Assembly (NCBI RefSeq): GCF_000218685.1
Contig: NW_006763303.1
Span: 558,001 to 622,000, forward strand
DNA: 64,000 nucleotides
Direction: 5' to 3'
Source: Serpula lacrymans var. lacrymans S7.9
Lineage: Eukaryota; Basidiomycota; Agaricomycetes; Boletales; Serpulaceae
The first letter of the stretch is position 1; each line of letters opens with the position of its first letter. The notes under the pieces are model-generated. The model had not been told where the DNA came from and did not search any database. It worked only from the letters and a program-made list of their open reading frames with translations. A program made the position numbers and the translations under genes. Shown here piece by piece: positions 44,185 to 60,958 of this stretch.

Positions 44185-44911
44185 TGGTTCGGAAATACGC
44201 ATATGTGGTGTGCGACCCGTTAGCTTTATGATGTGAGAGCCGAACGGATCACTGAATTGTTGTGCGAGTCGAGTTGGACGGAAATGTAGACGATGCGAAA
44301 ACCTACGGTGGTCATTTGGTTACGGTTGGAATGCCGGCGACGGCATCGGATTTCTTTCAACGACCGACAATTCCGATAGGTCTCTTTGAATATTCCTAAG
44401 GGCATGACCATATCTGTAAAAATGAATGTAGTATATTGTGCTTATTCTCATATGTGGTAGCCTGTATTTGTTATATTTACATTGAAAAAACAGAAAAGTA
44501 ATCAACGAGCAGGAAACAAGAGATGATAATGCCGGTGCAAAAGCGAGAATACCTGGATGAATCAGTAAACACGGATAATATAATAACTTACAATATGTGA
44601 CTGCCCGTAAAACGTGGGTGGCAACTGTGGCGACAAGTGATAAAGTCATAAAACAAGAATAAAATAAAAACTCACGTGTTATCCACGGCACCAGGGTTGC
44701 TATACCGTTATATGACCACCAAATTAGCAACATTGTATGGCCAGATTATCAGAGCTGAATGACAGGGCTTGGTTAGTTGACTATAGTGCGACAGCCATAG
44801 AAATTTTAGTACTGCACAGTTATGCGGATCTGTGGCCATGTTATTAGTTACAGGTCACACCATCACACGACGAGGTTTTTTCCTTACTACCGCTCACTGG
44901 GTGCTCAATCT

Positions 44912-44947
44912 TACGGTGGTCGTTTGGTTACGGTTCGATTTTGGAGG
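44912..44947 (+). repeat. Left terminal inverted repeat, inner element
   Basis: Starts TACGGTGGTCGTTTGGTTAC, continues GGTTCGATTTTGGAGGC. It pairs with 60257-60293. Confidence 0.8.
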
Positions 44948-47422
44948 CAAGCCGAAGTCCGGCATTATATTTTTCAAACCCCGTAGCTACACTGTAAATC
45001 TATCCCTAATAACCAAAATTTGATCAGAGTTTGATCAGAGCTCGTGAGTTCGTGATTTTCGGGATCGAGCAAATGTGTGCTTCACTATAGCGGTTTATTG
45101 CATGGGCATCATCTATGTTCTACAAAAGCATACGTAACAAAGAAACACTCTTAGCCATGAACACGACTAGACATAATGTCTGCCTCGACTTCCTGTAGTG
45201 CTCTCTTTATCGTAGCAGACCCCTACAAAAATGTACATAAAATGCATTAGAGGAGTATACATCAATTGAGTTCAAAACATACCGCTATTGCTAAGGAAGG
45301 GAGTCCAAAATATAAGCAATATTCATTGCATTTGTGCAATGATGGGAAGTTGTCCAGAGTTGCCGTCCAGTTTCCTTCACCAAAGTTATTTGCAAACTCA
45401 CTGGGGGCAAAGATGAGAGCTGGTAACTTGATAGGAAAAAAAGACTGACTTGGTTGTGATAATCTGACAGTCGGTCAGGATTTTACTGGACCCTGAGAAG
45501 CAAAACTAAGTAAGAGATAGAAAGAGACAAAATAACATACCTTGAAAATCTGAAACAAAGACAAGACCTTGCGAGAAATGATACTGTGCGTGTTGTGCAA
45601 AACACAGGAATGTTGCGATCTCCAGTTTGGCTGGGGCAAGGCTATGGCGAGGAGTTGCACAGTTGTTGTTGATATACTTGACAAACTGGCCGCTAATCCT
45701 TTCTTCCAGAAGATACACGGCATTGTGTGACTCTCTGGTATCTTGGGGGATGGCTAAAGCAGTGTGGACAATACAGAGGCGAGGAATAATTGGGGGAGAA
45801 TAGACGAGGGGCCTGCAAATTAGTTTGTCGTCAATGAAATTATACACTAAAGTCATTAGGCTCGTTGCCCAGTAAAGACAATTGGCTTCGTCAAGCATCT
45901 TCACTAGCTCGTCCTGAACAGCCAGCCGTTTGCGCCCACCCGAAGGACTTGATGGGGTCTTGCTCACTTCGGCCCCCTCTACCTGTTTTCTGTAAAAGCA
46001 ACACTTAGCCACTATGGTTTCCACCTGCAGAATGTTGTCCTCTGGTTGCAACATTTCACTTCGTTCTAACAACGCCGGATAACACGTTTTGAAGCTTCCA
46101 GCCGGTCCAAGCATTGCCTTGGAACTACAGTCAACCGTCAATATCACTATGGGGCGATTAACCTGGTTCATGACGCCAAAAGGGACTCATTTCTTGAGGA
46201 GGTCTGTAAATGGGGTTGAGGGTACCAGGAACAGCACATACACTCCTATGTTGGTGCTTATTTCAGTGTTGTATTAGTACATATTCATGAAAGAGGGTGT
46301 TCCACTTACAAATAGGCTTTGCCAGGCGCTGAACATCCCCTTGAGCCATCATCACACATTGAAGAACAGCTTTGTCCGGCACACTAAATGGTGGGACATC
46401 CAGGGGTGGGGTATCCATAGAGAGTATCCTAGAAGGCAGAGATTGGATGCTGGAACTCAAGGGAGTGAGGGGGCGTAGTTCGGGTAGTGGTTGTGCCCTG
46501 CTATGAAATAAGCTTGAGGTTGAAGTTGTCATCTCCGTATCTACATGATTACTAGGTACCTGCAAGCAGTAAGTATTATTTGTAATTATATAAAACCCAG
46601 GGACATACCTGTTCTCCGGCTGGTATTTTCTGGTGAACGGGCACAGAGCCACGTGTGGGAGGAGGATACTGCACTGATGTCTCTTTTGCACGAGTTTTTC
46701 TGGCTTGTTTTCCGCCTGATGTTGCTGCAAGAAATATCTATGAGAATAATAGTATGAGCATAGCAAAATAATACATAACAAGAAGTATTAACCCTATCCA
46801 TTGGACCACCAACATCATCATCCTCACCAGATGAGATCCCCGGACTCTGAGCATCTTCATTGCACAAGTGTGCTTTGGCATGCTTATCTTCTTCCTTCCA
46901 CAGCAAGACATCTTCAAAATCTTCCTTCAACATCAGGAGGACGATGGAGACTTTGACGTTTGGCAAAAACTTTGGTGTAAAGTCTTTACCAGAGGCGCGA
47001 AAAAAGAAGTTGTGGAGGATTAGTCACTTGGAGTACTGCTGAGGCTCTTCAGGGTCATAAATGAGTAGTAACGGAGCCTTGAGCATTTGTAGTGACTCGA
47101 GCGCCAACCAATGGTCACAAGACCAGACAACCCATAGACACTTCAGGTTTTCTATGATAGTGTCATGTAGTTGGCCGCATTTGATGGAGAGTGGTACTGA
47201 AATATCCCGCTCAATGTTCTCAACCCAAAATATGAGCGAGTGTCCTCAAGAATCAAAATAAAAGCCATGAACTCACCCCAACCAACTCTGTCCCAGACTT
47301 TCCTTCATCCTTCACATGATGTAGAGCAATCTGAATTGTGACCTGACATTGAGGAGCCACTGTAGAAGCCAGCATTTTTGTGCGGTGGTGGGTGTGGAAG
47401 TTGTGGTTATGAGTGTAACCTA

Positions 47423-48050
47423 TGTCAGGCAACAAATACGAAGCTATATAACAAAGCCCAATGTCTGGTCAAGTCCTTCCTTGAAGGCGGTGAATCAGAG
47501 TATGAGAATGAAGAGTATCGGTAAGAGCGCAAATCCAAACTAATATTGAACTGGAGAACAATACATCAAGTATGTACTTCTCTATATAGTGAACGACGAT
47601 GGTCAGACCGAGAAAGGGGAGTACTGAGAAAGTGGTCTGACCAGCTAGCTAACCAATAAGAAAAAAGGAAGAAAGTGGTCCGATCTATCGTCTTTACTAA
47701 TCGTATGAGAAAGCGTATTGGTAAGGGATGTACGATTGGCTGTATCAGTAAGCCCATGAGAAGGCGCTGACTCACAACCTTCTTCGCTTATCAATATTCC
47801 TCCAAAGTATTCCCAGACATAGCACTGGATCGTGACTATGTCATCTGGATATCTTCTCGAGGGTCGACAACGAGTCTACCTCGTCGTAGGTACGATAGAA
47901 CGTGAGTGTGAAGAGAGAATAAGAAGAAAAATGATAAAAGTAATAAGACACCTGCTGTAATCTCTAGTCCAAGGGCAAGAGGAGTGACGGGGATTGAGTC
48001 TGCTAACCACGACATGACGGGAATGCGATAAGAAAAATCGATTCCTCACA
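47423..48050 (-). repeat. 3' LTR of chromovirus element
   Basis: 628 bp, matching 55045-55672 position for position at an offset of 7622. It contains the TATA box CTATATAG (47582-47589) and the 11-nt self-primer block (47542-47552). Confidence 0.95.
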
Positions 48051-48062
48051 TTAGCTCCCCTT

Positions 48063-51000
48063 TTATAAGACTCGTGTCCTCATGAGTCCGGATGCGGCAC
48101 TTTGGAACTTGTTACTAATCCAATCAAAGAGCATGGGAGGTTTGGAAGTGGCGGTGTAGTTTTCGTAAGGACGGAAGTGGAGAGAAGCGGTAATAATCCG
48201 AGGGGCGGCTGGATTTGTTTTATGGAAGGCGGCGAGTAAATCAGCGACATGCGTAAGATTGGTGTCGGGTTCCCAAGTTCGTTCGGAGACTGGATAACCA
48301 TGCCAGTGAATGAGGTAGTCGAGTTTACTACCTTTCAGTTTGGTCGGTCTGGAAGCGATTATACTCTCTACTTCGTATTCGTCTATCCCTTCCACGATCT
48401 CGGGTGGTGGTCGCGAGGAAATTGGTTGATTGATGAATTCGGGAGCGTGGTATGGGGAAAGGATGGCTTCGTTGAACACGGGATGAATGGACTTCCAACT
48501 TTTAGGGATATCGAGTTGATAGGCGGAGGGTCCGACCTTTTGGGTGACTTTGAAAGGTCCGAAGCGTTTATCGTCTAATTTCTTCATTGGTCTATCCGTT
48601 GTGATGTTATGCCCTTCTAACCAGACTTTGTCGCCAGCTTGGTACTCCCGGGAGGGGGATTTCTTACGGTCGTAATACTTCTTCAGATTCTCGTTTGCTA
48701 CCAGAAGGGAGGATTTCGTGATATCGTGGAGTTTTTTCATTTGTTCGCTAAATTCTGCTGCAGAAGCGGAGCGAGGGGATAACGTGGTGGTGATATTCGT
48801 TCTTGGGTGTAACCCATAGTTCAAAAAGAAGGGTGTTTGATTCGTTGCGGTATGGAGGTGGTTGTTGTATGTAAACTCAGCAATGGAGAGCCAGTCTGCC
48901 CAGTCATCTTGTCGATGATTTATAAAAACGCGGAGGTAGTGCTCTAGATCCTGGTTGATCCGTTCGGATTGTCCGTCTGTTTGAGGGTGATAGCCTGTAG
49001 AGAGGCCTGGTGTTATCCCCATTAGGTCGTAGAAGTCTTTTGTGAATCGAGACATGAATTGAGGACCTCGATCGGAGACGATCTTTTCAGGAATTCCGTG
49101 GAGTCGTATTACATTATCTCGGAGTTGACGTGCATAACCGGCCGAGTCGAGAGTGACGAAGGTGGGGACGAAATGGGCCATTTTACTAAATCGGTCAACA
49201 AAGACCTGAACGGCGGTGTAGCCCTTGGATTCCGGTAATGCGCCTATGAGATCGGTGGTGATAACCTGCCAAGGCCGATCTGGTATCGGGTTCGGGTGTA
49301 GAGGGGCGTTAGTCTTTGTCCGGTGTGCCTTGGTGCGTTGACAACTCTCGCACCCTCGTACATACCGTCTGATATCTGTACGAAGACTCGGCCACCAGAG
49401 CTCTCGGTTCACTCGTTCAAACATCGTTCTTTCTCCTGGGTGCCCGGCTAGGGCTTCGTCGTGATGATCTTTCAATATTCGCGCCCTTAGTTCGTGATTT
49501 CGGGGAACGTATACTCGGTCAGCTAAAGGGATCGGGTAGGAACTCGTCGCGGACTCTCTTTTGATCCAGACGATCCTATCCTTCATCTTCCAGGTATCCG
49601 GCTTCTCTTTCAAGTTCTTCCTTACTACGTCGTCTTGTTTCTGGAAGCTTTGACGTATATCTGGTAGGTATCCTTCGTTGGTGTCAAGTAATTCGAAATG
49701 TACGTCTGGGAGAAGTATCTGATCTTCGTTATCGTTTGTGCCTTTAGGATGATCGATCCGTCTGCTTAACAGGTCGGCCTTCGTATTCTGATTTCCTTTG
49801 ACGTGTTCCATCTTAAAATTATAATCTGCAAGCTGGGATGACCATCGAGCTTGGCGTCGATTGTATTTCTGCGGTTGACGGAAGTAGAGGAGGTTTTGGT
49901 GATCTGTGAAGATGGTGAAGGGGTGTTTCGATCCTACAAGGTGATGTCGCCATTCATCTAACGCCGTCATGACTGCGAGCATCTCTTTGTCGTAAATTTC
50001 ATAGTTCCGTTCTGCAGGGGTAAGGGCTTTCGAGAGGAATGCTATGGGTCTGAATTTGTCGTTTTGTTTCTGGGATAGGACGGCTCCTACAGCGAAGTCA
50101 GAGGCGTCGGTTTCTAGTTTGAATGGGTCGTCGTCGTTTGGTATAGCAAGGGTGGGGGCAGTAGTAAGCGTTTTCTTCAACGTTTCAAAGGACGTCTCTT
50201 GTTCGTCTTTCCAGGTCCAGTCAACTTTTCCAGTGAGCACAGTGAGTGGTTTCGCAATTCGTCCGTAGTCTTTAACAAATCGTCGATAGAAATTGGAGAA
50301 CCCTAAGAATGATTGGAGTTCCCTTTTGTTCTTTGGTGCGGGCCAGTCAGCGACCGCTGCGACTTTTAACGGATCCATACGGATAGTGTCTTTGGAGATG
50401 ATCATGCCTAAGTACTCGACTTCCTGTTTCTCGAATTCGCACTTCTCTGGTTTAAGATACAACTGATTTTGTTGCAGGATACGGAGGACTTTGGTGACTA
50501 TTTGACGATGTTCTTCGAGTGTTTCCGTGAAGATCATAATATCGTCTAAATATACAATAACTTTTCCTTCCGTGATCAGTTCTCTTAGGAGGTGGTCCAT
50601 CATGGTCTGGAAGGTTGCTGGCGAGTTGGTAAGTCCGAAAAACATGACGAGGGGTTCGAACAGGCCGCGATTGGTCCTGAAAGCGGCCTTGTGTTCGTCT
50701 CCTTCTTGGATTCGGACGTTGTTGTATCCCCATCGTACGTCTAGTTTTGTGAAGTAATTGGCACCTTTGAGTTTATCGATAAGTTCGGATATGAGGGGGA
50801 GGGTGTAGCGATTCTTTATGGTAAGCTCATTCAGCTTGCGATAATCTTGGACAGGGCGTAGTGAGCCATCTTTCTTTTTGATAAAGAAGAATGGTGATGC
50901 GTAAGGTGATTTGGATACTCGAATTCGTCCACTTGTTAGATTTTCGTTAAGGAATTCGTCTAGATGGTGTTGTTCGTCTCGGCTAAGAGGGTACGTTTTA

Positions 51001-52079
51001 CAGTCAAGACCATTAGCTTCGGGTATTAACTCGATTGCATGGTCCCAAGGACGTTTCGGGGGAAGTTTGTCGAATGATTCTTTGGTGAAAACGGGTTCGA
51101 ATTCATGGTAGATTGGAGGAACGACATCTCGGAAAGTAAGCTTTGACTTTGCCTTTTCGGAGGATTCGGCGATTTGTTGACTTTTAGTGGCGAATGCGTT
51201 CAGTTCTAGCTGTGTTATCTCCATAATTCGTGTTTCAAGATCGACGGCTAGAACTTTATCCCCTTCTTCAGGATGATACTCCGGATCATCAGCAGGGAAG
51301 GTAATCTTGTTGGTCCGCCAATCAATTGTTGGATTCGTCAGTATCAACCAGTCGTATCCAAGCAGTATGCGTGGTGAAAGTAGAGATGCTACGATGACAT
51401 CTATCAAATGTTCTTTCCCTTTCACATTGATGTGAAGAGTGACATAGTGTGTTACTTTCTGGGATCGACCATCGGCTCCTGCAGCGTCAAGAGGGATGGG
51501 CAGAGGCGTAGTATTGAGGGTATACTTGTCAACCAGGCTTCGATCGATAACCGAGTTGGTGCAACCAGAGTCGATAAGGGTTGGGACGGTGAATGTCTGT
51601 CTGTCGTCTATGGTAGTGACTTGAGAAATGACGTGGAGGCTTCGTTTTGACGTAGGGTTGTGCGACGAGGTGTAAGCATGGATGCGTTCTATAATGTTCT
51701 CTTCGTCGTGGTTCTTTAGCATCTGTATCGCCTGCAGGGTGATATGCTTGTAGTGATCTTTATGGGCCCAGTTTCGTAACAGAGCTCTTGCTCTTTCTGG
51801 TTTCTGGTCTTTGATTCGTCTGGCCAACCATTCCGGTGAATGTGGCTTTGCGTAGGTTTCAGTTACAGCACGTAGATGTTGATCAACTCGTTTCATTGCA
51901 GTCGTTGGTAATATACGAGGGTTAATTACAACATTTCGGGTCAGAGAGTCCGTGCTTACTCCTGACCTTTCTGAAAATCCTTCGGGGGTGCTTCGATTTC
52001 TTTTAATGATGATGTAGTGGGAGTGTCTTTGGTTTCCTCCGTTTCCATATATCGTATTGCCATCTTTCCATGTGGGCAA
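48063..52079 (-). CDS. Gypsy Pol polyprotein (PR-RT-RH-IN-chromodomain)
   Basis: An ORF of 1338 codons. Approximate residue positions: aspartic protease with DSGCTNSVID at 170; reverse transcriptase 340-580 with the active site IVYLDDIMIF at 508 (Leu in the second place of the Y-x-D-D box); RNase H from 655 (LETDASDFAVGAVLS) through Glu 698 and Asp 726; integrase HHCC finger 873-914, catalytic Asp in TTDLIG (941), Asp in VSDRGPQF (1003) and Glu in DGQSERINQDLEHY (1040); GPF module near 1174; chromodomain 1234-1288 (YEVESIIASR ... YLIHWHGYPVSERTWEP). All catalytic residues are present. It overlaps Gag by 124 nt in the -1 frame, which suggests ribosomal frameshifting. The chromodomain suggests targeting to methylated histone H3. 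Confidence 0.95.
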   Translation of the reverse strand: MPTWKDGNTIYGNGGNQRHSHYIIIKRNRSTPEGFSERSGVSTDSLTRNVVINPRILPTTAMKRVDQHLRAVTETYAKPHSPEWLARRIKDQKPERARALLRNWAHKDHYKHITLQAIQMLKNHDEENIIERIHAYTSSHNPTSKRSLHVISQVTTIDDRQTFTVPTLIDSGCTNSVIDRSLVDKYTLNTTPLPIPLDAAGADGRSQKVTHYVTLHINVKGKEHLIDVIVASLLSPRILLGYDWLILTNPTIDWRTNKITFPADDPEYHPEEGDKVLAVDLETRIMEITQLELNAFATKSQQIAESSEKAKSKLTFRDVVPPIYHEFEPVFTKESFDKLPPKRPWDHAIELIPEANGLDCKTYPLSRDEQHHLDEFLNENLTSGRIRVSKSPYASPFFFIKKKDGSLRPVQDYRKLNELTIKNRYTLPLISELIDKLKGANYFTKLDVRWGYNNVRIQEGDEHKAAFRTNRGLFEPLVMFFGLTNSPATFQTMMDHLLRELITEGKVIVYLDDIMIFTETLEEHRQIVTKVLRILQQNQLYLKPEKCEFEKQEVEYLGMIISKDTIRMDPLKVAAVADWPAPKNKRELQSFLGFSNFYRRFVKDYGRIAKPLTVLTGKVDWTWKDEQETSFETLKKTLTTAPTLAIPNDDDPFKLETDASDFAVGAVLSQKQNDKFRPIAFLSKALTPAERNYEIYDKEMLAVMTALDEWRHHLVGSKHPFTIFTDHQNLLYFRQPQKYNRRQARWSSQLADYNFKMEHVKGNQNTKADLLSRRIDHPKGTNDNEDQILLPDVHFELLDTNEGYLPDIRQSFQKQDDVVRKNLKEKPDTWKMKDRIVWIKRESATSSYPIPLADRVYVPRNHELRARILKDHHDEALAGHPGERTMFERVNRELWWPSLRTDIRRYVRGCESCQRTKAHRTKTNAPLHPNPIPDRPWQVITTDLIGALPESKGYTAVQVFVDRFSKMAHFVPTFVTLDSAGYARQLRDNVIRLHGIPEKIVSDRGPQFMSRFTKDFYDLMGITPGLSTGYHPQTDGQSERINQDLEHYLRVFINHRQDDWADWLSIAEFTYNNHLHTATNQTPFFLNYGLHPRTNITTTLSPRSASAAEFSEQMKKLHDITKSSLLVANENLKKYYDRKKSPSREYQAGDKVWLEGHNITTDRPMKKLDDKRFGPFKVTQKVGPSAYQLDIPKSWKSIHPVFNEAILSPYHAPEFINQPISSRPPPEIVEGIDEYEVESIIASRPTKLKGSKLDYLIHWHGYPVSERTWEPDTNLTHVADLLAAFHKTNPAAPRIITASLHFRPYENYTATSKPPMLFDWISNKFQSAASGLMRTRVL

Positions 52080-53047
52080 TTTCTAGCAATGTGGCCTCGT
52101 TCGCCACAGTTGTAACAAGTAACATTCGGGTTGGGCCGATGTTGTCTCTGCGTGTTGGAACTCCCAATCTCCATAGGTACACCTGATCCTCCAAACGTTC
52201 CTGCTGTGTTTGGATGGACTGCATTCTGGGGCGGTGGTCTATGAGATGGAGTATAATACGGTCGCTGTTGGATATATTGTGGTCTTCGCGTCTCTGTTCG
52301 CGGTACTGTCTGTCGATACTGTGGCGGAGGGTAGTCTCGGTTCTGCTGATAGCGCGGTTGATATCGTTGGTACTGAGTTGGCAGCCTCTGTTGAGGTGGT
52401 TTATCTCTCCTCCTTTCCAGATTAAGCTCTTCATTTCGCTGTTCCCATTTCCTTGCTGCTGCCTTCCACTCTAAGTACGTGGTGGGTAGGTTTTCCTGTT
52501 GCGAGATACGATCACGAAGGAATTGAGAGAGGTTGCGGCGAAGGATACTGTGAATGAACGGATAACTTTCATCTGCGTCTGGTGGTAATCCTGCTTCCAT
52601 GAGTTTGGATTCGAGTCCTCCAAAATATGCGTCTACCGTCATCTCTCGCTGTTCGTAATCGTGAAGGGCAATCTCTGCTTTCAACTTGAGATGGGGGTCC
52701 AAGAATTCGTTATCTAACTCCTTGATGAATTCTGAGATAGTTCCCCAATTTCGCGGTGCAAATAGGTCTCCTAGCACTGCGGTTTTGTTGTTGAAATTCG
52801 CCTTCCATGTATGACAGGCGTCATTGGCTTTATCGGACGAGATCCGGGATAGTGCAAAGAGGATTTTGGAGGAATTGGTTTGGAAACTTCTGGGATAGGC
52901 GAAAAAGTAGTTTGCTAAAGCGTTCTTCCAGTCAACGTATGTTTCCTTTTTACCGATGAATTCGAATGGAGGAGTGGCAAGGACAGCTTTACTTCCTTGA
53001 TTTGTTTCGTCGGCCATTGCTGCTGCTAGATCAGGTTCAAGGTCCAA
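51956..53047 (-). CDS. Gypsy Gag with CCHC zinc knuckle
   Basis: The stretch from 53047 is open; the first ATG is at about 53017 (MADETNQGSK), and the frame is open upstream to about 53252 without an ATG. Capsid-type features include FEFIGKKETYVDWKNALANYF, ELDNEFLDPHLKLKAEIAL and TYLEWKAAARKWEQRN, then a Pro/Gln/Tyr/Arg-rich linker and one zinc knuckle (CYNCGERGHIARNC). Residues upstream of the ATG (EPENQPDDWFDQES) look protein-like, so the true start may lie further up by splicing, frameshift or a non-AUG codon. It ends at 51956, inside the start of Pol. Confidence 0.9.
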   Translation of the reverse strand: MDLEPDLAAAMADETNQGSKAVLATPPFEFIGKKETYVDWKNALANYFFAYPRSFQTNSSKILFALSRISSDKANDACHTWKANFNNKTAVLGDLFAPRNWGTISEFIKELDNEFLDPHLKLKAEIALHDYEQREMTVDAYFGGLESKLMEAGLPPDADESYPFIHSILRRNLSQFLRDRISQQENLPTTYLEWKAAARKWEQRNEELNLERRRDKPPQQRLPTQYQRYQPRYQQNRDYPPPQYRQTVPRTETRRPQYIQQRPYYTPSHRPPPQNAVHPNTAGTFGGSGVPMEIGSSNTQRQHRPNPNVTCYNCGERGHIARNCPHGKMAIRYMETEETKDTPTTSSLKEIEAPPKDFQKGQE

Positions 53048-53304
53048 AGATTCCTGATCGAACCAATCGTCGGGTTGGTTTTCGGGTTCCGGAGTTGAAG
53101 GTGGGGGAGGAAAGTTTTCTGGTCCTGCTGATTGATACAGATCGTCTGGTTCTAGAGCTTCAGCAGCAGCTCCTAGAGATTGTGGGGGAGGTGTGTCGGG
53201 AGTGACCAGAGGACGGGGTTCTCGATAGGGCTCCAGATTTTCAACGGGTTAGATAACGGGTTTTTTAGATAACAAGTCTTTCTAGATAACTAGTCCTTTT
53301 TTAT

Positions 53305-54342
53305 TTACTCGAAGTCTGGGTCAAACGTAAAATTACTAGGGAAGTCTCCTCCTTCTGCTTCTCGGGGTCTCCAGTATTCTACGCTTTGAGTAGACTCTTC
53401 ACTTTCCGACTCGGTTTCGCTGCTAGATTCTCCTCCAAGTATATCTGTTAATGAACTTCCTGTTTCTCGTTCTATCCTTTCTGCGCAAGGTGCAAAAAGT
53501 TGTTCAACCGACGGGATGAGTGGTGCTTCTCCTCTCCGACCTTGGTAGGTGTAAGAGTATTGCGAATAGATACGAGTTCGTGAGCTATGGTTGATAACGG
53601 CCCAGAAATCGCTTTGGAGTACTGTAACAATGAAACGTTCGGGGTGATCAGATTGTTGGTTAACAACGAATGGAGTGAGGATTTCTAGGATCCAGTAATA
53701 TTCGTCAACGTATTCTGAAACGTGTCGAATGTTGTCGATTTCGGTCGTGTAGTCTTCTCCGTCACGGGATTTCCTCTGAGCAGTTGCGATGAGCTGATCA
53801 AATCGTGCTAACGCAGCAACAACTCGTCGAATATGATCTTTAGTAGAGGGCGTGACAATGATAATGGAAGTGCTGTGTTGAAGACCAAACCGCGGCCCGA
53901 ATGCGTCAAGATCGTGGACTTCAGGGAGGTAGAGAGTTCGGCGAAGTCGTGTCAGATATTGGACAATAGAAAGGTGGTCTAGATGATTGCCGATGCAGAA
54001 GTACTGGATGGGTTGGTAACTGACAGGAGAGGCGGAGTAGGTGTCGTAGTAGTCAGATGTAAAAAATGAGGACGGGATATCGTAGGTAGGTTCCTCGTTA
54101 GGCCTCTTCCTTAACACAATGCCACAAAGCAAGGTGTGTTCGAAATCGTAAGGGAGGAGGCGGCTGGGTATGTCTGGAAAAATGAGAGGGCGGATTCGAT
54201 AAAGATCGAGGAGATCTGGGATGTGGCTCTGCGAAATAAGTTGCAGGTTTCGTTCTTGTACGTTGGCTATTCCTTTCAAAAGCTTAACCCTCTGAGTGTT
54301 CTCGTAACTCGGGCGTACTAGGCTCTCGAAGTAGTCTATCAA
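53305..54342 (-). CDS. Accessory ORF upstream of gag, unknown
   Basis: 345 codons in the 5' region of the gypsy element, same strand as gag and pol. No family recognised. Visible traits: predicted mixed helix/strand with many aromatic residues (HEQIPLIDYFESLVRPS just upstream, DYYDTYSASPVSYQPIQYF), an acidic C-terminal tail (SSSETESESEESTQ, ending FDPDFE). The listed start is a TTG; the frame is open slightly upstream and overlaps the next ORF (54787-54284) by 59 nt, so the two may form one product by frameshift or splicing. Ordinary gypsy elements carry no such gene. Confidence 0.65.
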   Translation of the reverse strand: MIDYFESLVRPSYENTQRVKLLKGIANVQERNLQLISQSHIPDLLDLYRIRPLIFPDIPSRLLPYDFEHTLLCGIVLRKRPNEEPTYDIPSSFFTSDYYDTYSASPVSYQPIQYFCIGNHLDHLSIVQYLTRLRRTLYLPEVHDLDAFGPRFGLQHSTSIIIVTPSTKDHIRRVVAALARFDQLIATAQRKSRDGEDYTTEIDNIRHVSEYVDEYYWILEILTPFVVNQQSDHPERFIVTVLQSDFWAVINHSSRTRIYSQYSYTYQGRRGEAPLIPSVEQLFAPCAERIERETGSSLTDILGGESSSETESESEESTQSVEYWRPREAEGGDFPSNFTFDPDFE

Positions 54343-54787
54343 CGGAATTTGTTCGTGCCACAGGGATATGAAGATTAAAAGTTCTCTCCGTGCTCTGTCG
54401 GAGATGTTGGAGTATCTCCTCGAGACTGCGAGAATTTCTCCTACAGATGGCGGAATGGTAAAAGATGGATTGGGTGAGAGCGAGTGCGTCGTTTATGTCG
54501 AGGATGATATCCTCGATCAGATCGATTGGTGAAGACGAAGCAGAGGAGTCTTGATACAACTCAGTGATCTGTTCGACCGTTCCTTCCACGTCTGGAGTAC
54601 GGGCTTCGGTAGGGACGGGGAGGACCGGGAGCGGTTTGTTGAGAGTTGCGAGGAAATCTCTCTGGTGTCTGCGGTCCGCTTCTGATACCCACTCTTCTGA
54701 GAGCTGTTGGGAGGTAGACACGATGGAGGTACACGACGTCGCTGTCGAGTCCGGTTTGTAGGTACCTGATGATGGCAAAGAACGCAA
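54284..54787 (-). CDS. Second accessory ORF before gag, unknown
   Basis: 167 codons, ATG 54787 (actual ATG of MRSLPSSGTYKPD should be checked). Ser/Thr-rich start, then helices (QQLSEEWVSEADRRHQRDFL; EQITELYQDSSASSSPIDLIEDI). It ends in the overlap with the 345-codon ORF. It could be the N-terminal part of the same accessory protein. No family recognised. Confidence 0.5.
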   Translation of the reverse strand: MRSLPSSGTYKPDSTATSCTSIVSTSQQLSEEWVSEADRRHQRDFLATLNKPLPVLPVPTEARTPDVEGTVEQITELYQDSSASSSPIDLIEDIILDINDALALTQSIFYHSAICRRNSRSLEEILQHLRQSTERTFNLHIPVARTNSVDRLLREPSTPELREHSEG

Positions 54788-55032
54788 AGAATTGGACGAG
54801 AGCGGTGATGGTAGAGAAGGCGTCCAGTTTGGGAAGACTGAACGACAATAGGTGTAATGGGGTGGATAGTGAGAGGTCGATGACGATAGTGAGGAGAGGG
54901 ATAGGGATGGTAGAGAGGTGGAGAAGGTGATGATGAAGGTTTAGACCGGTGCAGTGGCAACGACAGTCTTTTTCAGGGTGTAAGGAAACGGTTTTCCAAA
55001 GAGGGGCTCTGGAAAAGGATTCGAGGTAGGTG

Positions 55033-55043
55033 AGTTCAATATT
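55033..55043 (-). promoter_or_regulatory. Self-complementary primer-binding site of gypsy element
   Basis: One base after the 5' LTR the minus strand reads AATATTGAACT. This is the exact reverse complement of AGTTCAATATT at 55174-55164 inside the LTR, where transcription is predicted to start. The arrangement equals Tf1 of fission yeast, in which the first 11 nt of the RNA fold back to prime reverse transcription. Confidence 0.8.
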
Positions 55044-55044
55044 T

Positions 55045-55672
55045 TGTCAGGCAACAAATACGAAGCTATATAACAAAGCCCAATGTCTGGTCAAGTCCTT
55101 CCTTGAAGGCGGTGAATCAGAGTATGAGAATGAAGAGTATCGGTAAGAGCGCAAATCCAAACTAATATTGAACTGGAGAACAATACATCAAGTATGTACT
55201 TCTCTATATAGTGAACGACGATGGTCAGACCGAGAAAGGGGAGTACTGAGAAAGTGGTCTGACCAGCTAGCTAACCAATAAGAAAAAAGGAAGAAAGTGG
55301 TCCGATCTATCGTCTTTACTAATCGTATGAGAAAGCGTATTGGTAAGGGATGTACGATTGGCTGTATCAGTAAGCCCATGAGAAGGCGCTGACTCACAAC
55401 CTTCTTCGCTTATCAATATTCCTCCAAAGTATTCCCAGACATAGCACTGGATCGTGACTATGTCATCTGGATATCTTCTCGAGGGTCGACAACGAGTCTA
55501 CCTCGTCGTAGGTACGATAGAACGTGAGTGTGAAGAGAGAATAAGAAGAAAAATGATAAAAGTAATAAGACACCTGCTGTAATCTCTAGTCCAAGGGCAA
55601 GAGGAGTGACGGGGATTGAGTCTGCTAACCACGACATGACGGGAATGCGATAAGAAAAATCGATTCCTCACA
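55045..55672 (-). repeat. 5' LTR of chromovirus element
   Basis: Same sequence as 47423-48050. Predicted U3 is 55672-55175, and R plus U5 is 55174-55045, about 130 nt. Confidence 0.95.
55203..55210 (-). promoter_or_regulatory. TATA box of gypsy element 5' LTR
   Basis: CTATATAG, about 30-36 bp upstream of the predicted RNA start at 55174 on the minus strand. Confidence 0.7.
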
Positions 55673-56189
55673 ACCTATGGCTTGAGAGATACTAACAGAC
55701 ACGGGAACATGAGGTGGAGGCATTGAAGCAGTATGGCCCATGCCAATATGCTGCTTGGGGAATGATTGTTCTGCAAGTACATTGTGTCAGTAAGTGCTAT
55801 TACCACGCACAGGGGAGACAGAAATTTTACTCACCGCCACATTGTGCTGCCGAGGAAGCTTTGACAAGAGCTTGGCGCGAAGTAGCATCAATGCCACGTG
55901 TGCTGGAAGCTACTTTTGTGAAATCTAGTATTAAGCCGCCTTATCAGCATAGATTAGATTACAGAAATAAAACAAACATACCAACAGATCCATTTGATGT
56001 GCCCCCATTAATGTCTTCTCTAGCTTCAGCACGCTTGCGTTGATAATGAGCGGCACAATCCGGGCAACAGTGGCGACCGGTCCCATCTCTGCCCTTGATG
56101 TACAAGAACTGGATTGACCTATCAAACTCAGTGCGACAACAATTACAAGTCTTAAAAGAGGGGCCTTCAGTAGTGGGTGTAAAATCCAT

Positions 56190-56583
56190 GATAGCGAAAT
56201 TACATACCTTTCCCCTCCTATTGTATTTTATATGGATACTTTGGGTTACATTCAAGTCCGAGTTAAGTGATGTTGTGTCCGAGTTGCAGGCCTCGCAAGA
56301 ATTTCCTCGGCACAAAGACAAAGATAAGGGCTATGTAAATCAGGGTGAATTGCAGCTCACCAATGGGCAATCTCAAACACTTGTGATTGAGTAAAGACAA
56401 GGAGACGGTGATTGAGGTAGCATCAGTGAGGAACAAACAAGGAAGAGGTGACAGGTGACTGGTGATTGCTTGCACAACGGCTAAATGGATAGCCCTTCAG
56501 CACGTTCACAGTGAGTTCATTTTTGAGGTTGCCTTATTTCCGGCAACAGAGCCTTCACATTGCTTTTTGTTTACATCTAGGAC
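56190..56583. promoter_or_regulatory. Head-to-head intergenic region in the TIR element
   Basis: About 394 bp between the start codons of the alpha-kinase (minus) and integrase-core (plus) genes. It would hold a shared or bidirectional promoter. An upstream in-frame extension of the kinase ORF to 56321 is open but looks non-conserved. Confidence 0.5.
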
Positions 56584-58374
56584 AATGCCCAATCCCCGTG
56601 GTACCAATGGATATAAGGTAACTCCAGGTAGGCTTGCAGGAATCTCAGTGTAACATTATGCTCACTTTACGTCCTTTTAACACAGCTCCTGACACTGTAA
56701 TTTGGCCATTGGTGGAGCAATTTGTAGCAGAGGGATATACCAATCCAGAAATTATCACTAAACTCAAGGACTACTATGACACAGAGCAGTATTCTTTTTT
56801 GTGAACCTTTCCTTCTAAGTGTGATGCTAGCATACATTAGACTGACACATTTGTTTTGTTAACTACAGCCTTTCATTATTGAAGAAAAAAAGGATGGTGT
56901 GGGGCTTAAAGAGCACTCGGGGCCAGGGACATTCAGTTAAAAGTATTGGGCTAGCTATTGAACGTGTTCGTGCACGGTTTCCTCATCAAGGATCACATGA
57001 CATGAAACAGACATTGCGACATGAAGAATCGGTGATGGTGCCTCAGTAAATTGTTCCATTCTCCACACCGACTGGGACACTCAAATAATATTTTGACAGG
57101 CGAGTAATACTAGAATACATGAACTTGCACCATCCAGAAGAAGTACAAGGACAAGTAAGACGCCAATTAAAACGTAGCTATTTCTGGACAGCTGGCATTA
57201 ATGAGCTGTGGTGCTTTGATCAGCACAATAAATGGCGCCACTTCCAGCTCTTTTTCACGTTGGAATTGAGCCCTGTTCTGGCTATGTCCTCTGGCTCAAA
57301 GTTTGGTGGACAAACCACAATCCTCGTCTAATATGCGGATGGTACTGCAACATTATGGAGCGGTTGGGTGGTAAGTTCACTTTTTTTTAACAAGTTCCAT
57401 TGCTAATGTTCATGTTATACAACACAGGGATGCCTCTAATCACTCAAAGCGACCCTGGAACCGAAAATTATAGCATTGCAAATGACCACACACTCCTTCG
57501 ATACATGCAAGACCCAGCTTTGGACAAAATGTTACAGCATAGTTTCAAAGGATCCCATTGCAACATCAAGCCAGAGATCTTTTGGGGTAAACTTTGAAGA
57601 CAGTGGTCTCCGGGTTTTGAGTCACTTATTGACTGGGGGGTCAAAGAGGGCCTATATGATGCAGATGATCCCCTCCAATGGTCGCATTCCATCTATCTAG
57701 GCTATAGTATGACTGACACTTATTTGCAGGCTGGTATTCCACTATGTATTTATCCCCTGGATACAACAGGAACTCGACCGCTTTGTTGACAGATTCAACC
57801 GCACAAAGCCCCGACATAATTCACACAAGCTGCTTCCACACGGACACCCCATTGATATCTTCAATCAACCAGAGAAATTTGAGTTGCGTGACTTTGTGGT
57901 AAGTTTGTTTCCCTTGATTCCATTGGTCATCTCAAATACATGCTTGTCCAGGTTAAGATCCATCCGCCTTATCTCACTGAAGTGCGAAAAAAATATGCAC
58001 CCCCCGATCATCATGTCTTTAACTTAGTACCTCCAGCCTTTGCGTTACAAGCTTGCGCAATCTCAGATGCTGCAAACTACCCACCAATTTGTTGCAACAA
58101 TGTATGGGACATCTATGTCCACTTGCTCGAGCAGTTCCAAAACCAGCCGAACGACACTGAATTCCAGGCCATGCTGGCCAAGTCTGCTATTCCAACAATG
58201 CAGAAGACTTGGATTTCATGCCGGTTATACCTCTTCCACCACACCAGCAAGGGAGACCTGTTGTGGGAGGCGCACCACATAATGTTGCATGCTACTCATC
58301 ACACGAAGCAGAGACTGACTTTGAATATGAATGGACGGACGATTCGGATGGAACCTGGGATTGATTTGCCTTAG
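56584..58374 (+). pseudogene. Fungal integrase-core domain protein, lightly decayed
   Basis: ATG 56584 starts MPNPRGTNGYK. After introns come PDTVIWPLVEQFVAEGYTNPEIITKLKDYY (HTH-like), RMVWGLKSTRGQGHSVKSIG, then RRQLKRSYFWTAGINELWCFDQHNKW (candidate first catalytic Asp in FDQH), KVWWTNHNPRLICGWYCN, PLITQSDPGTENYSIAN (second Asp, TQSD), NIKPEIFWGKL, QWSPGFESLIDWGV, VFHYVFIPWIQQELDRFVD, KLLPHGHPIDIF and KYAPPDHHVFNLVPPAF. This pattern is a widespread multicopy integrase-catalytic-core family of basidiomycetes. Damage: a frameshift in the T5 tract at 57251-57255 and an in-frame TGA at 57595-57597. It is divergent from the alpha-kinase gene and both lie inside one TIR element, so it may be the element's transposase. 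Confidence 0.75.
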
Positions 58375-58505
58375 CTATTGTCTTGTAGTACATGTCTCAT
58401 TTTCTTGCAATTTAATGTCTATAATTGTGAATATATAATTACAGTATCTATTATCAAAACACCGGCCTCCAATCTGAATCCCCGTAAAAAAGTGGTTTGG
58501 ATCCT

Positions 58506-58910
58506 TGTAGTTAGCAGATGATCAAGTTTTGGGCTGACCTTACTTGAAGTCAGTAGAAGGCTTGAGGTCCGGTTTCTTCAAGGCTGCGTGACTGGTGTGC
58601 TTGGAGTCCTTCAATCCTCACAGTGCCCGCATTACTGGGGACCCTGCGACATTGTGGAGGATCTTTGTTGTTAAATTTAGGATCTGCAAAGCAGTCATTC
58701 AGATCATCGTGGTTAGCAGATGACCAAGTTGTGGGCTGACCTTACTTCCTTGAAGTCAGTAGAAGGCTTGAGGTACGGTTTCTTCAAGGCCGCATGATTG
58801 ATGTGCTTGGAGTCCCTCAATCCTCCCAGTTTGTGAGATCCAAACCTTTGCCTCCTTGACTTGGAACTTGACAGAAGCTTGAGGTCCGGTTTCCTCAAGG
58901 ATGCATCGGA
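58506..58910 (+). repeat. Imperfect direct repeats (~120 bp, period ~202 bp)
   Basis: The block starting GTTAGCAGATGATCAAGTTT at 58510 recurs with few changes at 58712 (GTTAGCAGATGACCAAGTTG). Both run through GGGCTGACCTTACTT, AGTCAGTAGAAGGCTTGAGG and GGTTTCTTCAAGG to TTCAATCCTC-type sequence. A third partial copy (GCTTGAGGTCCGGTTTCCTC) is near 58872. The sequence is non-coding and lies in the right part of the inner TIR element. Confidence 0.7.
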
Positions 58911-60256
58911 GGATCTGTAGGGAACTCATTTGAGCCTTTGTAAGCTAGCACTACAATAAATGGTTGGGCAACTCACTTCCAAATTTCTTCTTTGAACTTG
59001 ATGGAAAGCTCAAGGCTTGAGCTCCAGCATCTTCGACTTGACCTTGAAGGTTGGCACTTTGACATAACAGATTGGAAGAGGTGTTCCCTTGCAAACCGGA
59101 ACTTCAGACTCATTGCACCTCATGCACATGCCCTTTTTTTCATGTCCTTGTATTTGTTTCCTTGTTCCAAACGTGAACATTGTGAACACTTGCGGATAAC
59201 TTGATGAAGTTTCTGCTGTCTGACTTGAGGTCCATGTGCGCGAAATGGTCATGTGAGCTGACTTTCCTGATTCGGCAGCCTTCCTCATTATTTGTTTTGG
59301 CTCTCATCTACGACTACCCTGCCTATCCACAACATTGTTTCTCTTAACTCAATTCATAGCTCTAAATGCTGGTATTGTTACTCCCTTCATGCACCATATA
59401 GGGCTCTGGTTTAGGTTGGCTCACGCTGCAAGGGATCATATACAGGTCAGGATGTTCTCTCTAAATTCTGTACGCATTGATAATATGCTCGTGGGGATAA
59501 TGATAGTGGTGAAACTGGGACCGGTAAGTTGTTTTTTTGTCAATCATCCCTCTGCTAACTCACCTCTCAGATTTAATTGTTTCCATCCTCGCCAACATGC
59601 ACCTGTCAAATACCAACGCTGATGTCCTTTTCGCAACTATCATCCATTACACTCGCCCTGGATTGTCCGCCAGCTCTTGCACACCTAGTCCCAAGGGTTG
59701 GCCCATATCCCCCGTGATCAATGTGCAGATGCTCCAGCCAGCTGTGTCTGCTCCGGTGTCCTATTTGTCAGGTGCTGCCGTTGTTCCCACCGCCGCCGCC
59801 TCCCTTGCTGCTGTGCCTGCTCCCCATGGTTCAACCACCCTCCTCATTCCACTGTCAAACCCATGCCCCCTTTCCCCATGTGCACACACACATCTACCAT
59901 GGTGCCACCTTGGAGGTCCCAGAGAACAGTACTGCAGGACCATTTTGGCTGGTATGTTACATATCTACCGATTCTCATCATTTTCATCCCACTGACATCT
60001 TCTGTAGGGCTAGAGCCTCTCTTATTGGCACAGGAGTCAGCCGTGCTGTCTTCATTCGTACTGCTTCAGTTGTATGTCCTGAAAGCGCATCTGTGACAAT
60101 ATATTTGTTTTTTTGGTCTCACAAACTGTATCTCTAAGGAAGCTCTCTCGATCTTAATTAAGCTATCGCTGATCATTACTCACATATCTATAAACTTACA
60201 ATATAATCTTTGTACAGTTTATCGGCCTTTCAAAAAAATTACTGAATTTTAGATCG
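58911..60256. other. Right part of inner TIR element, no gene assigned
   Basis: Plus-strand ORFs at 59537-59995 and 59721-60137 are Pro/Ser/Ala/His-rich, and the overlapping frames are all open, which is typical of compositional bias. A segment GPFWLVCYISTD is protein-like. No family assigned. Confidence 0.4.
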
Positions 60257-60293
60257 GCGTCCAAAATCAAACCGTAACCAAACGACCACTGTA
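60257..60293 (-). repeat. Right terminal inverted repeat, inner element
   Basis: On the minus strand it starts TACAGTGGTCGTTTGGTTAC and continues GGTTTGATTTTGGACGC. CAATCT follows directly at 60294-60299. Confidence 0.8.
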
Positions 60294-60958
60294 CAATCTC
60301 GTCCAACGCTGCAGCCACTATTCTGGATCCATTCCATCACAACGCTCACTCCACAGATCAGCTAAAACCTAATTTTTTTTTTACTCTGGCCACTCGAGGT
60401 TGACTGAGCATGCAAAGTAGGTAAGCGTGACTTTCTGCTTACCTAATATTTCCAGCTGACATATGCCTTGTACCCCCTTGCACTCAATCCCTGGCCTGCC
60501 TGCGAACTTTTCCGTACAAGTTTTTTGTAGTAACTATTTTCCTTTCCATATTCGTGACATTTTGTCTTCACCAATTTTCCCTGTACTTGCAAAGCACATT
60601 TTATAATAATATTGATACTCACAACAATCATGGTCACACTGCATGGGCAAATTAGAGGTATAAGAGTGGCTGTTGAATATACTAAGATGCCGTGTTCTGC
60701 GGTGTTTAAAATTCCAACCGTAACCAAACAACCACCGTAAAAACAAGCTCCGAGTCGAGTCTTGAGATCTTGAGGTCTGAGATCTGAGTGTCTCTCAGAC
60801 GATGCATTGAGCGTCTGGCTAATGCCGACCACGAGGCCACCTTGCTGTACACACGTGTGCTTCTGAGACCCACACATCTTTTGCCCCCACCACTCTTTCT
60901 CTCCCCTCAACATCAACTTCACAAATATTGTCCTTCCATACCATTCAACTCCTCGATC

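Follow-up and report, generated by a model that had tools for sequence, protein, structure and literature searches.

An alpha-kinase gene as a regular component of a probable IS3EU-type DNA transposon in Serpula lacrymans

Why do an alpha-kinase gene and an integrase-core gene lie together between two nested pairs of inverted termini, and do these termini bound one mobile unit or two? The question is raised by a 64,000-nucleotide stretch of the Serpula lacrymans S7.9 genome (hereafter the window). A search of the window with TACGGTGGTCGTTTGGTTAC at up to three mismatches returned exactly four matches, in the places and orientations of the original prediction, and 100 shuffled sequences gave none at the same threshold. 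The inner pair (44912/60293) has 37-nt arms that are 92% complementary, flanked by a perfect duplication, CAATCT/CAATCT; the outer pair (44304/60739) is flanked by AAAACC on the left and AAAACA on the right (5/6). Pattern search, flanks and Pfam matches together confirm the four termini, the 6-bp duplications and the gene order that had been predicted.

The four termini belong to two separate insertions, of which one lies within the other (Table 1). The outer element is a non-autonomous element of ~1.05 kb, present without interruption at four further places in the genome. These short copies serve as paralogous empty sites: each has only one CAATCT at the insertion point of the inner element, and the flanking sequences on either side are the same. 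This bears out the proposal of a DNA transposon that duplicated 6 bp of target on insertion. Alternatively, the outer pair could be the mobile unit and carry both genes as a composite, as its inverted termini and 5-of-6 duplication would allow. However, the outer sequence amounts to one copy of the ~1.05-kb family, uninterrupted elsewhere, its two pieces overlap by six bases where it is broken, and a second arrangement of this size was not seen among the genome-wide 20-mer matches. The uninterrupted short copies rule out a 16.4-kb composite unit, and we consider it very improbable that the outer pair moved both genes. We conclude that the outer pair marks a short non-autonomous element in its own right, which the inner element hit, and not a larger carrier.

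Table 1. Features of the nested insertions, in window coordinates.
Feature	Position	Strand	Remarks
Outer element, left piece with left terminus	44304..44911	+	608 bp; 98.5% identity to left part of C7:1564660-1565710
Left copy of inner element's target duplication	44906-44911		CAATCT; last six bases of outer left piece
Inner element, probable IS3EU-type DNA transposon	44912..60293	.	37-nt inverted termini, CAATCT duplication, empty sites
Alpha-kinase gene, several exons, split by LTR retrotransposon	45150..56189	-	PF02816 E 1e-7, over cut-off; 3' limit approximate
Alpha-kinase catalytic exon	45506-46186	-	Part of the 45150..56189 gene
LTR retrotransposon	47423..55672	-	LTRs 628 bp, identical; duplication ACCTA; inside kinase gene
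Alpha-kinase first coding exon, CxxC...CxxC segment	55995-56189	-	N-terminal segment 71% identical to 7,307-bp family
Transposase gene (integrase-core, rva_4 type), introns, broken frame	56585..58374	+	Matches 4-467 of intact 467-aa transposase, changing frames; PF24764
Third-gene remnant, weak	59886..60098	+	37.5% identity over 72 aa, E 3.5e-4 in four-element search
Right copy of inner element's target duplication	60294-60299		CAATCT; opens outer right piece
Outer element, right piece with right terminus	60294..60739	+	446 bp; 96.4% identity to right part of C7:1564660-1565710

More than half of the inner element is an LTR retrotransposon that the original prediction did not mention: the element measures 15,382 bp with it and ~7.13 kb without it. 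This retrotransposon, which appears Gypsy-like from a reading of its frames, is a later insertion than the transposon around it. Its own integrase was ruled out as the source of the integrase-core gene, because the latter, of the rva_4 type, is located at 56585-58374, beyond the retrotransposon. The window copy is dead, because the retrotransposon splits the kinase gene and the transposase frame is broken, with a frame change and an in-frame TGA in the exon of the catalytic Glu.

Genome-wide, a 20-mer of the terminus gave 33 matches at up to two mismatches, against none for the reversed pattern; at four mismatches, the reversed-pattern control also found 2 of 23 loci. The inverted pairs with 6-bp duplications sought in the genome were found: 27 pairs, 20 of them with identical 6-bp flanks and two more with identical 7-bp flanks, compared with one identical combination in 702 when flanks were cross-paired as a control. 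The five pairs without a perfect duplication match at 5/6 (three), at 4/6 (one) or not at all (one, C21). The inner element itself has TACGG at its left end and TACAG at its right, a single departure from TAYGG; the 7,307-bp family has TACGG at both ends, and other copies have TATGG or, in some cases, TATAG or TACAG. At ~20-37 bp, the shared motif is short, as would be expected if the termini were unrelated repeats that enclose genes by chance. Shuffles and reversed-pattern controls, which gave no match at up to two or three mismatches, rule this out, and together with the recurrent duplications and copies of exactly 7,307 bp they leave it a negligible probability.

Those copies form a related, uninterrupted family of seven members, each exactly 7,307 bp long and 99.9-100% identical over 2.4 kb. 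The family spread recently, and it provides a counterpart for comparison.

The Pfam rva_4 model returned only seven distant matches in the genome and missed the window gene, so transposase searches were run with the family's own protein instead. In an alignment that took in 40 of 105 homologues, D152, D211 and E252 are nearly invariant. PF24764 was detected in 40/40 of these proteins and HTH_21 in 8/40; the window fragment itself matches PF24764 below the cut-off (E 0.008). The IS481 and IS3 models match 12/40 and 7/40 homologues, respectively, at E values of up to 1 (best 1.1e-6 and 3.9e-7). The nearest folds are those of TnsB, IstA and retroviral integrases. A transposase profile found no relatives in IMG/VR, and its best match among PDB sequences was not significant (E 0.06).

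Is the kinase a regular part of such elements, as had been proposed? In the window the two genes are divergent, the kinase starting near 56189 on the minus strand and the transposase near 56585 on the plus strand. Across the genome, 16 of 23 alpha-kinase matches fall between paired termini, which span 0.5% of the genome; the remaining seven lie outside, four of them at places lacking a convincing terminus or transposase. A transposase was found within 15 kb at 21 of 30 kinase loci, in divergent orientation every time (21/21), and excluding the burst family leaves 13 of 21 loci, again all divergent (13/13). Conversely, a kinase is missing within 15 kb at 6 of 28 transposase loci. The counts between paired termini (16/23) and near a transposase (13/21) uphold the kinase as a regular component. 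Beyond Serpula, 5 of 14 kinase matches share a species and an equal-sized contig with a transposase match.

These counts also support transposition as the source of most alpha-kinase copies in the Serpula genome. The broader suggestion that the element explains the fungal alpha-kinase expansion is supported for this genome. Alpha-kinases are described as highly expanded in rusts, a table row in the accessible part of the source having one column with 79 copies and another with 39 (PMC4469406), and are listed among the enriched families of wheat rusts in the available text of PMC5295586. As the apparent expansion in Serpula is largely the spread of a transposon, counts of kinase expansion need correcting before they are used to infer function.

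The kinase of the 7,307-bp family scores 63.9 bits against PF02816 (cut-off 21.3; the query was an approximate concatenation of exons). A full-length search recovered three proteins and the catalytic region 19, of which 18 were aligned (P0123 was left out). The alignments show the catalytic and zinc-site motifs in the kinase; its middle domain has weak ubiquitin-like matches only (E 0.03 and above). Judged from substitution rates, purifying selection acts on the kinase as it does on the transposase (kinase dN 0.13, dS 1.2-1.5). It could still be a passive passenger, captured once and taking no part in transposition: copies without a kinase or with a damaged one exist, and gene-less non-autonomous copies have spread. 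Against this stand strong purifying selection across element lineages (although a kinase serving the host would show selection too), the retention of the catalytic motifs and the kinase-transposase pairing in several other species, and we find a passive passenger unlikely, at perhaps a quarter of the weight. We conclude that selection maintains the kinase as a constant component and that it is no chance passenger. The element makes it possible to study, in a eukaryotic DNA transposon, a protein kinase that has been retained under selection.

A third gene, absent from the original prediction, lies at the other (right) end of the element and is predicted to encode a small protein whose domain resembles the N-terminal one of RNase H1. 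PF01693 is over the cut-off in three of seven copies and under it in the other four, as well as in a longer query. The remnant in the window was not among the genome-wide matches for this gene.

How might these components work together? A transposon, very probably of the IS3EU type, inserted into a short non-autonomous relative with the same termini. The likeliest course is that the DDE transposase binds the inverted TAYGG..CCRTA ends, excises the element and joins it to staggered target cuts, giving rise to the 6-bp duplications. The element type also encodes, as its second component, the divergent alpha-kinase with its N-terminal zinc-binding-like segment and, as its third, the far-end protein with its putative hybrid-binding domain. 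The kinase, which we infer to be active, most likely acts in trans on behalf of the element: it would phosphorylate the transposase itself or else a host factor that holds back its expression or movement. The original prediction had the integrase-like protein mobilising the element and the kinase as a regular passenger or helper; the mobilising and the helping we still infer, and the kinase's place as a regular component is supported. We favour a helper role as the probable one and hold any single target to be far less so. A tentative extension, to which we give somewhat less than an even chance, is that basidiomycete IS3EU elements are three-component systems in which the kinase (with TET in some lineages) and the RNA:DNA-hybrid-binding-like protein regulate the transposase or counter host control, and that the alpha-kinase expansions of rusts and mushrooms are mostly IS3EU copies and not host signalling genes.

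The element was thought to be an undescribed transposon type. This did not hold: its ends, duplication and transposase fit IS3EU, a named superfamily listed in Repbase since 2013 (PMC10045372), and the divergent gene order has been published for TET+ IS3EU families, whose transposase and alpha-kinase are oppositely oriented (PMC12730594). As the TAYGG..CCRTA ends, the 6-bp duplication and the IS3/IS481-related DDE transposase agree with the published description, the inner element is very probably an IS3EU transposon with an alpha-kinase as a regular component. A new superfamily that merely resembles IS3EU is improbable; Pfam offers the rva_4 model only and the comparison is with the description of IS3EU, but ends, inverted-repeat length, duplication, IS3/IS481-like transposase and divergent alpha-kinase all match that description. 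As far as our search reached, the genome-wide linkage, the selection and the third gene are new, and the third gene may be described in subscription papers or Repbase.

Like IS3EU and GingerRoot, the latter described from a clubmoss, the Serpula elements have TA..TA ends, 6-bp duplications and a transposase akin to prokaryotic IS3/IS481; they also have a kinase, of which the accessible part of that source makes no mention for either (PMC10045372). With the TET+ IS3EU elements of rusts and Tuber indicum (PMC12730594, as far as available) they share TAYGG..CCRTA ends, inverted repeats over 30 bp, a 6-bp duplication and the opposite orientation of transposase and alpha-kinase, here in all linked pairs. 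Unlike them, they have no TET/JBP gene between transposase and kinase (0 of 18 TET matches in the genome fall inside 21 long terminus pairs), they carry the third gene (putatively RNase H1 N-terminal-like), which goes unmentioned in the available text, and their host is an Agaricomycete. The kinase resembles eEF2K, TRPM7 and MHCK A in its catalytic domain, by sequence motifs and fold, and differs from them in its N-terminal zinc-binding-like segment, its middle domain, for which the ubiquitin-like matches are weak, and its being encoded by a transposon.

Exactly four matches to the terminal motif were found in the window at ≤3 mismatches, all at the places originally predicted; the motifs are real, are the only ones there and are not chance occurrences. 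Genome-wide, the 20-mer derived from them matched 33 times at ≤2 mismatches, and the reversed-pattern control 0 times. The inner pair (44912 and 60293) has 37-nt arms with CAATCT flanking both sides, and the outer pair (44304 and 60739) has AAAACC on one side and AAAACA on the other. Convergent terminus pairs 1.05–1.56 kb apart occur at five genome loci. Four of these are mutually 95.7–98.0% identical, and what the fifth (C9, 1,557 bp) shares with them is confined to its two ends (493 and 64 bp). The window's two outer pieces, 608 and 446 bp long, align end to end with the four short copies and overlap by exactly six bases; at the overlap point, CAATCT is single in 4/4 copies, with identical flanks on both sides. 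Because the four copies match both pieces and carry CAATCT once, the outer pair is a short non-autonomous element that was hit by the inner element. The four termini and their nesting stand as predicted, but the outer pair is a separate element. Directly beyond it lies a NACHT-type reading frame (NPHP3_N, PF24883; 60788–61267).

Inverted terminus pairs with 6-bp duplications, sought genome-wide as the original prediction had proposed, were recovered: flanks were identical over 6 bp at 20 of the 27 tested pairs, versus 1 of 702 cross-pairings (16 matched at ≥5 positions). Two more had identical 7-bp flanks (the short element C9:115131–116687 and C14:365979–377614), both with T preceding the left terminus; the remainder matched at 5 of 6 positions (three pairs) or 4 of 6 (one), or were the C21 case described below (one). 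A related terminus, TACGGTGGATGATTGGTTACGG, delimits ten pairs, seven of them uninterrupted elements of exactly 7,307 bp and three of 8,249, 8,947 and 8,018 bp, with perfect 6-bp duplications at 9/10. The exception is a 7,307-bp copy, C21:160256–167562, which shares its right flank with C21:116403–124651 on the same small contig, where a target duplication is present only at the latter; this could have arisen by ectopic recombination or segmental duplication, or from a fault in the assembly. The kinase-side 2.4 kb of the seven 7,307-bp copies is 99.9–100% identical. The fully read C7 copy holds an open spliced transposase (467 aa), a kinase, which scored 63.9 bits against PF02816 with its exons joined approximately, and a third gene. 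This small, conserved gene lies at the transposase-side end and occurs at 24 genome loci, 20 of them ≤1 kb from a terminus. Its C-terminal segment matched the RNase H1 N-terminal domain above the Pfam cut-off in 3/7 copies and below it in 4/7; in the window the gene is visible only as a weak remnant.

The alpha-kinase is supported as a regular component of such elements: paired termini enclose 16 of its 23 genome-wide matches, although the 21 long pairs on which this count is based cover 0.5% of the genome. Duplications around these 16 matches were perfect over 6 or 7 bp in 13, matched at 5 of 6 in two and were absent in one. Outside pairs, a single terminus lies ~1 kb from each of C17:94198 and C5:1821293, C2:741764 is accompanied by a transposase and the far terminus, and no convincing terminus or transposase was found for C2:2799853, C5:1982804, C15:220689 and C2:1711724. 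When ~3.2-kb kinase loci were scanned at ≤3 mismatches, a terminus was present in 16/23 (reversed pattern 0/23), compared with 0/12 window tiles and 0/7 distant rva_4 loci. Relaxing the limit to 4 mismatches gave 18 kinase loci with a terminus, versus 2 with the reversed pattern. A more sensitive kinase query raised the count to 30 loci, 21 with a transposase within 15 kb, divergently oriented in 21/21. Excluding the recently spread burst family, 13/21 kinase loci were linked to a transposase, against 0.4 expected under uniform placement with elements treated as unrelated. A kinase lay within 15 kb of 22/28 transposase loci, one of which (C17:108949) is linked solely via its neighbour's kinase. 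Outside Serpula, 5/14 kinase matches were paired with a transposase match from the same species on an identically sized contig, and the other nine had no such counterpart among the matches listed in these non-exhaustive searches. In seven pairs, kinase distances rise with transposase distances (r 0.90, p 0.0016), which host descent alone could produce.

Features of the elements in Serpula and kinase–transposase pairs in other fungi
Feature	Location	Details
LTR retrotransposon	window 47423-55672	identical 628-bp LTRs; 5-bp duplication ACCTA; sits in kinase gene
Third gene	C7:1334741-1335400	one of 24 loci
Boletus edulis, kinase + transposase	contig 48,838	
Suillus occidentalis, kinase + transposase	contig 82,938	
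Suillus clintonianus, kinase + transposase	contig 147,019	
Grifola frondosa, kinase + transposase	contig 2,125,601	locus tags 05042 and 05045
Record named Pleurotus ostreatoroseus, kinase + transposase	contig 104,574	tags 009038 and 009039

Kinase and transposase are both under purifying selection. Comparing the 7,307-bp family with the window, C15 and C13 elements, dN for the kinase exon was 0.13 and dS 1.46, 1.18 and 1.52; for the transposase (window and C15), dN was 0.21 and 0.17 and dS 1.48 and 1.54, the ratios being only rough because dS is near saturation. Against more distant elements, where dS is saturated, pN/pS was 0.30–0.40 (kinase) and 0.29–0.38 (transposase). TRPM7 and eEF2K can be aligned with the kinase over the motifs at the catalytic Asp and the zinc site, and the predicted model of a Boletus homologue matches MHCK A and eEF2K (whole-chain pLDDT 68); an N-terminal CxxC...CxxC segment gave a sub-threshold Pfam match (zf-UDP). 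This selection and the constant linkage both favour a putative role of the kinase in the element's own spread.

PF24764 (rva_4 integrase-core) was detected in 40/40 scanned transposase homologues, HTH_21 in 8/40, and the IS481 and IS3 models in 12/40 and 7/40 at E up to 1 (best 1.1e-6 and 3.9e-7). Structure prediction (pLDDT 88) gave a fold whose closest matches are TnsB, IstA and retroviral integrases, at low overall TM-scores (0.17–0.31 by query length, first 20 rows); a PDB sequence search gave no significant match. D152, D211 and E252 are nearly invariant in the alignment, and we read them as the putative catalytic triad. Judging from family knowledge, the ends and the duplications, a DDE enzyme would move the element by 6-bp staggered joining.

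The inner element totals 15,382 bp, or ~7.13 kb without its LTR retrotransposon, which appears Gypsy-like from its reading frames. The shorter length is close to that of the sister element C13:632576–639746 (7,171 bp; 93.6% identical over 2.3 kb). Long open frames resembling retrotransposon insertions occur in three other long elements. The window transposase aligns with relatives in changing frames, and an in-frame TGA replaces an arginine codon of the intact family. Given these lesions and the retrotransposon in the kinase gene, the window copy cannot encode either protein in intact form. Just behind its transposase gene lie two diverged direct repeats ~200 bp apart (58486–58830; 86 nt at 91%, 60 nt at 82%).

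The proposal of an undescribed transposon type is not supported. As far as the available text of PMC10045372 goes, Repbase has listed IS3EU since 2013; its ends are TA..TA and its duplications usually 6 bp long. The elements here agree with the IS3EU description in the accessible part of PMC12730594 except for the TET gene. None of 18 genome TET matches lies within long terminus pairs; a weak TET/JBP-like one, C1:1328285, is ~4 kb from the IS3EU transposase fragment C1:1324134. In the literature searched, PMC12730594 alone places alpha-kinase and IS3EU together, and the sole Serpula mention in its accessible part concerns Plavaka; Repbase lay outside this search and may hold close relatives. 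From the fit with both descriptions, in the parts available, it follows that the element type is known, represented in this Agaricomycete by a variant with three genes and no TET gene. The kinase may plausibly act on host control, since in rust families the same gap is occupied by a TET gene whose proposed function is to oppose silencing (PMC12730594, accessible part).
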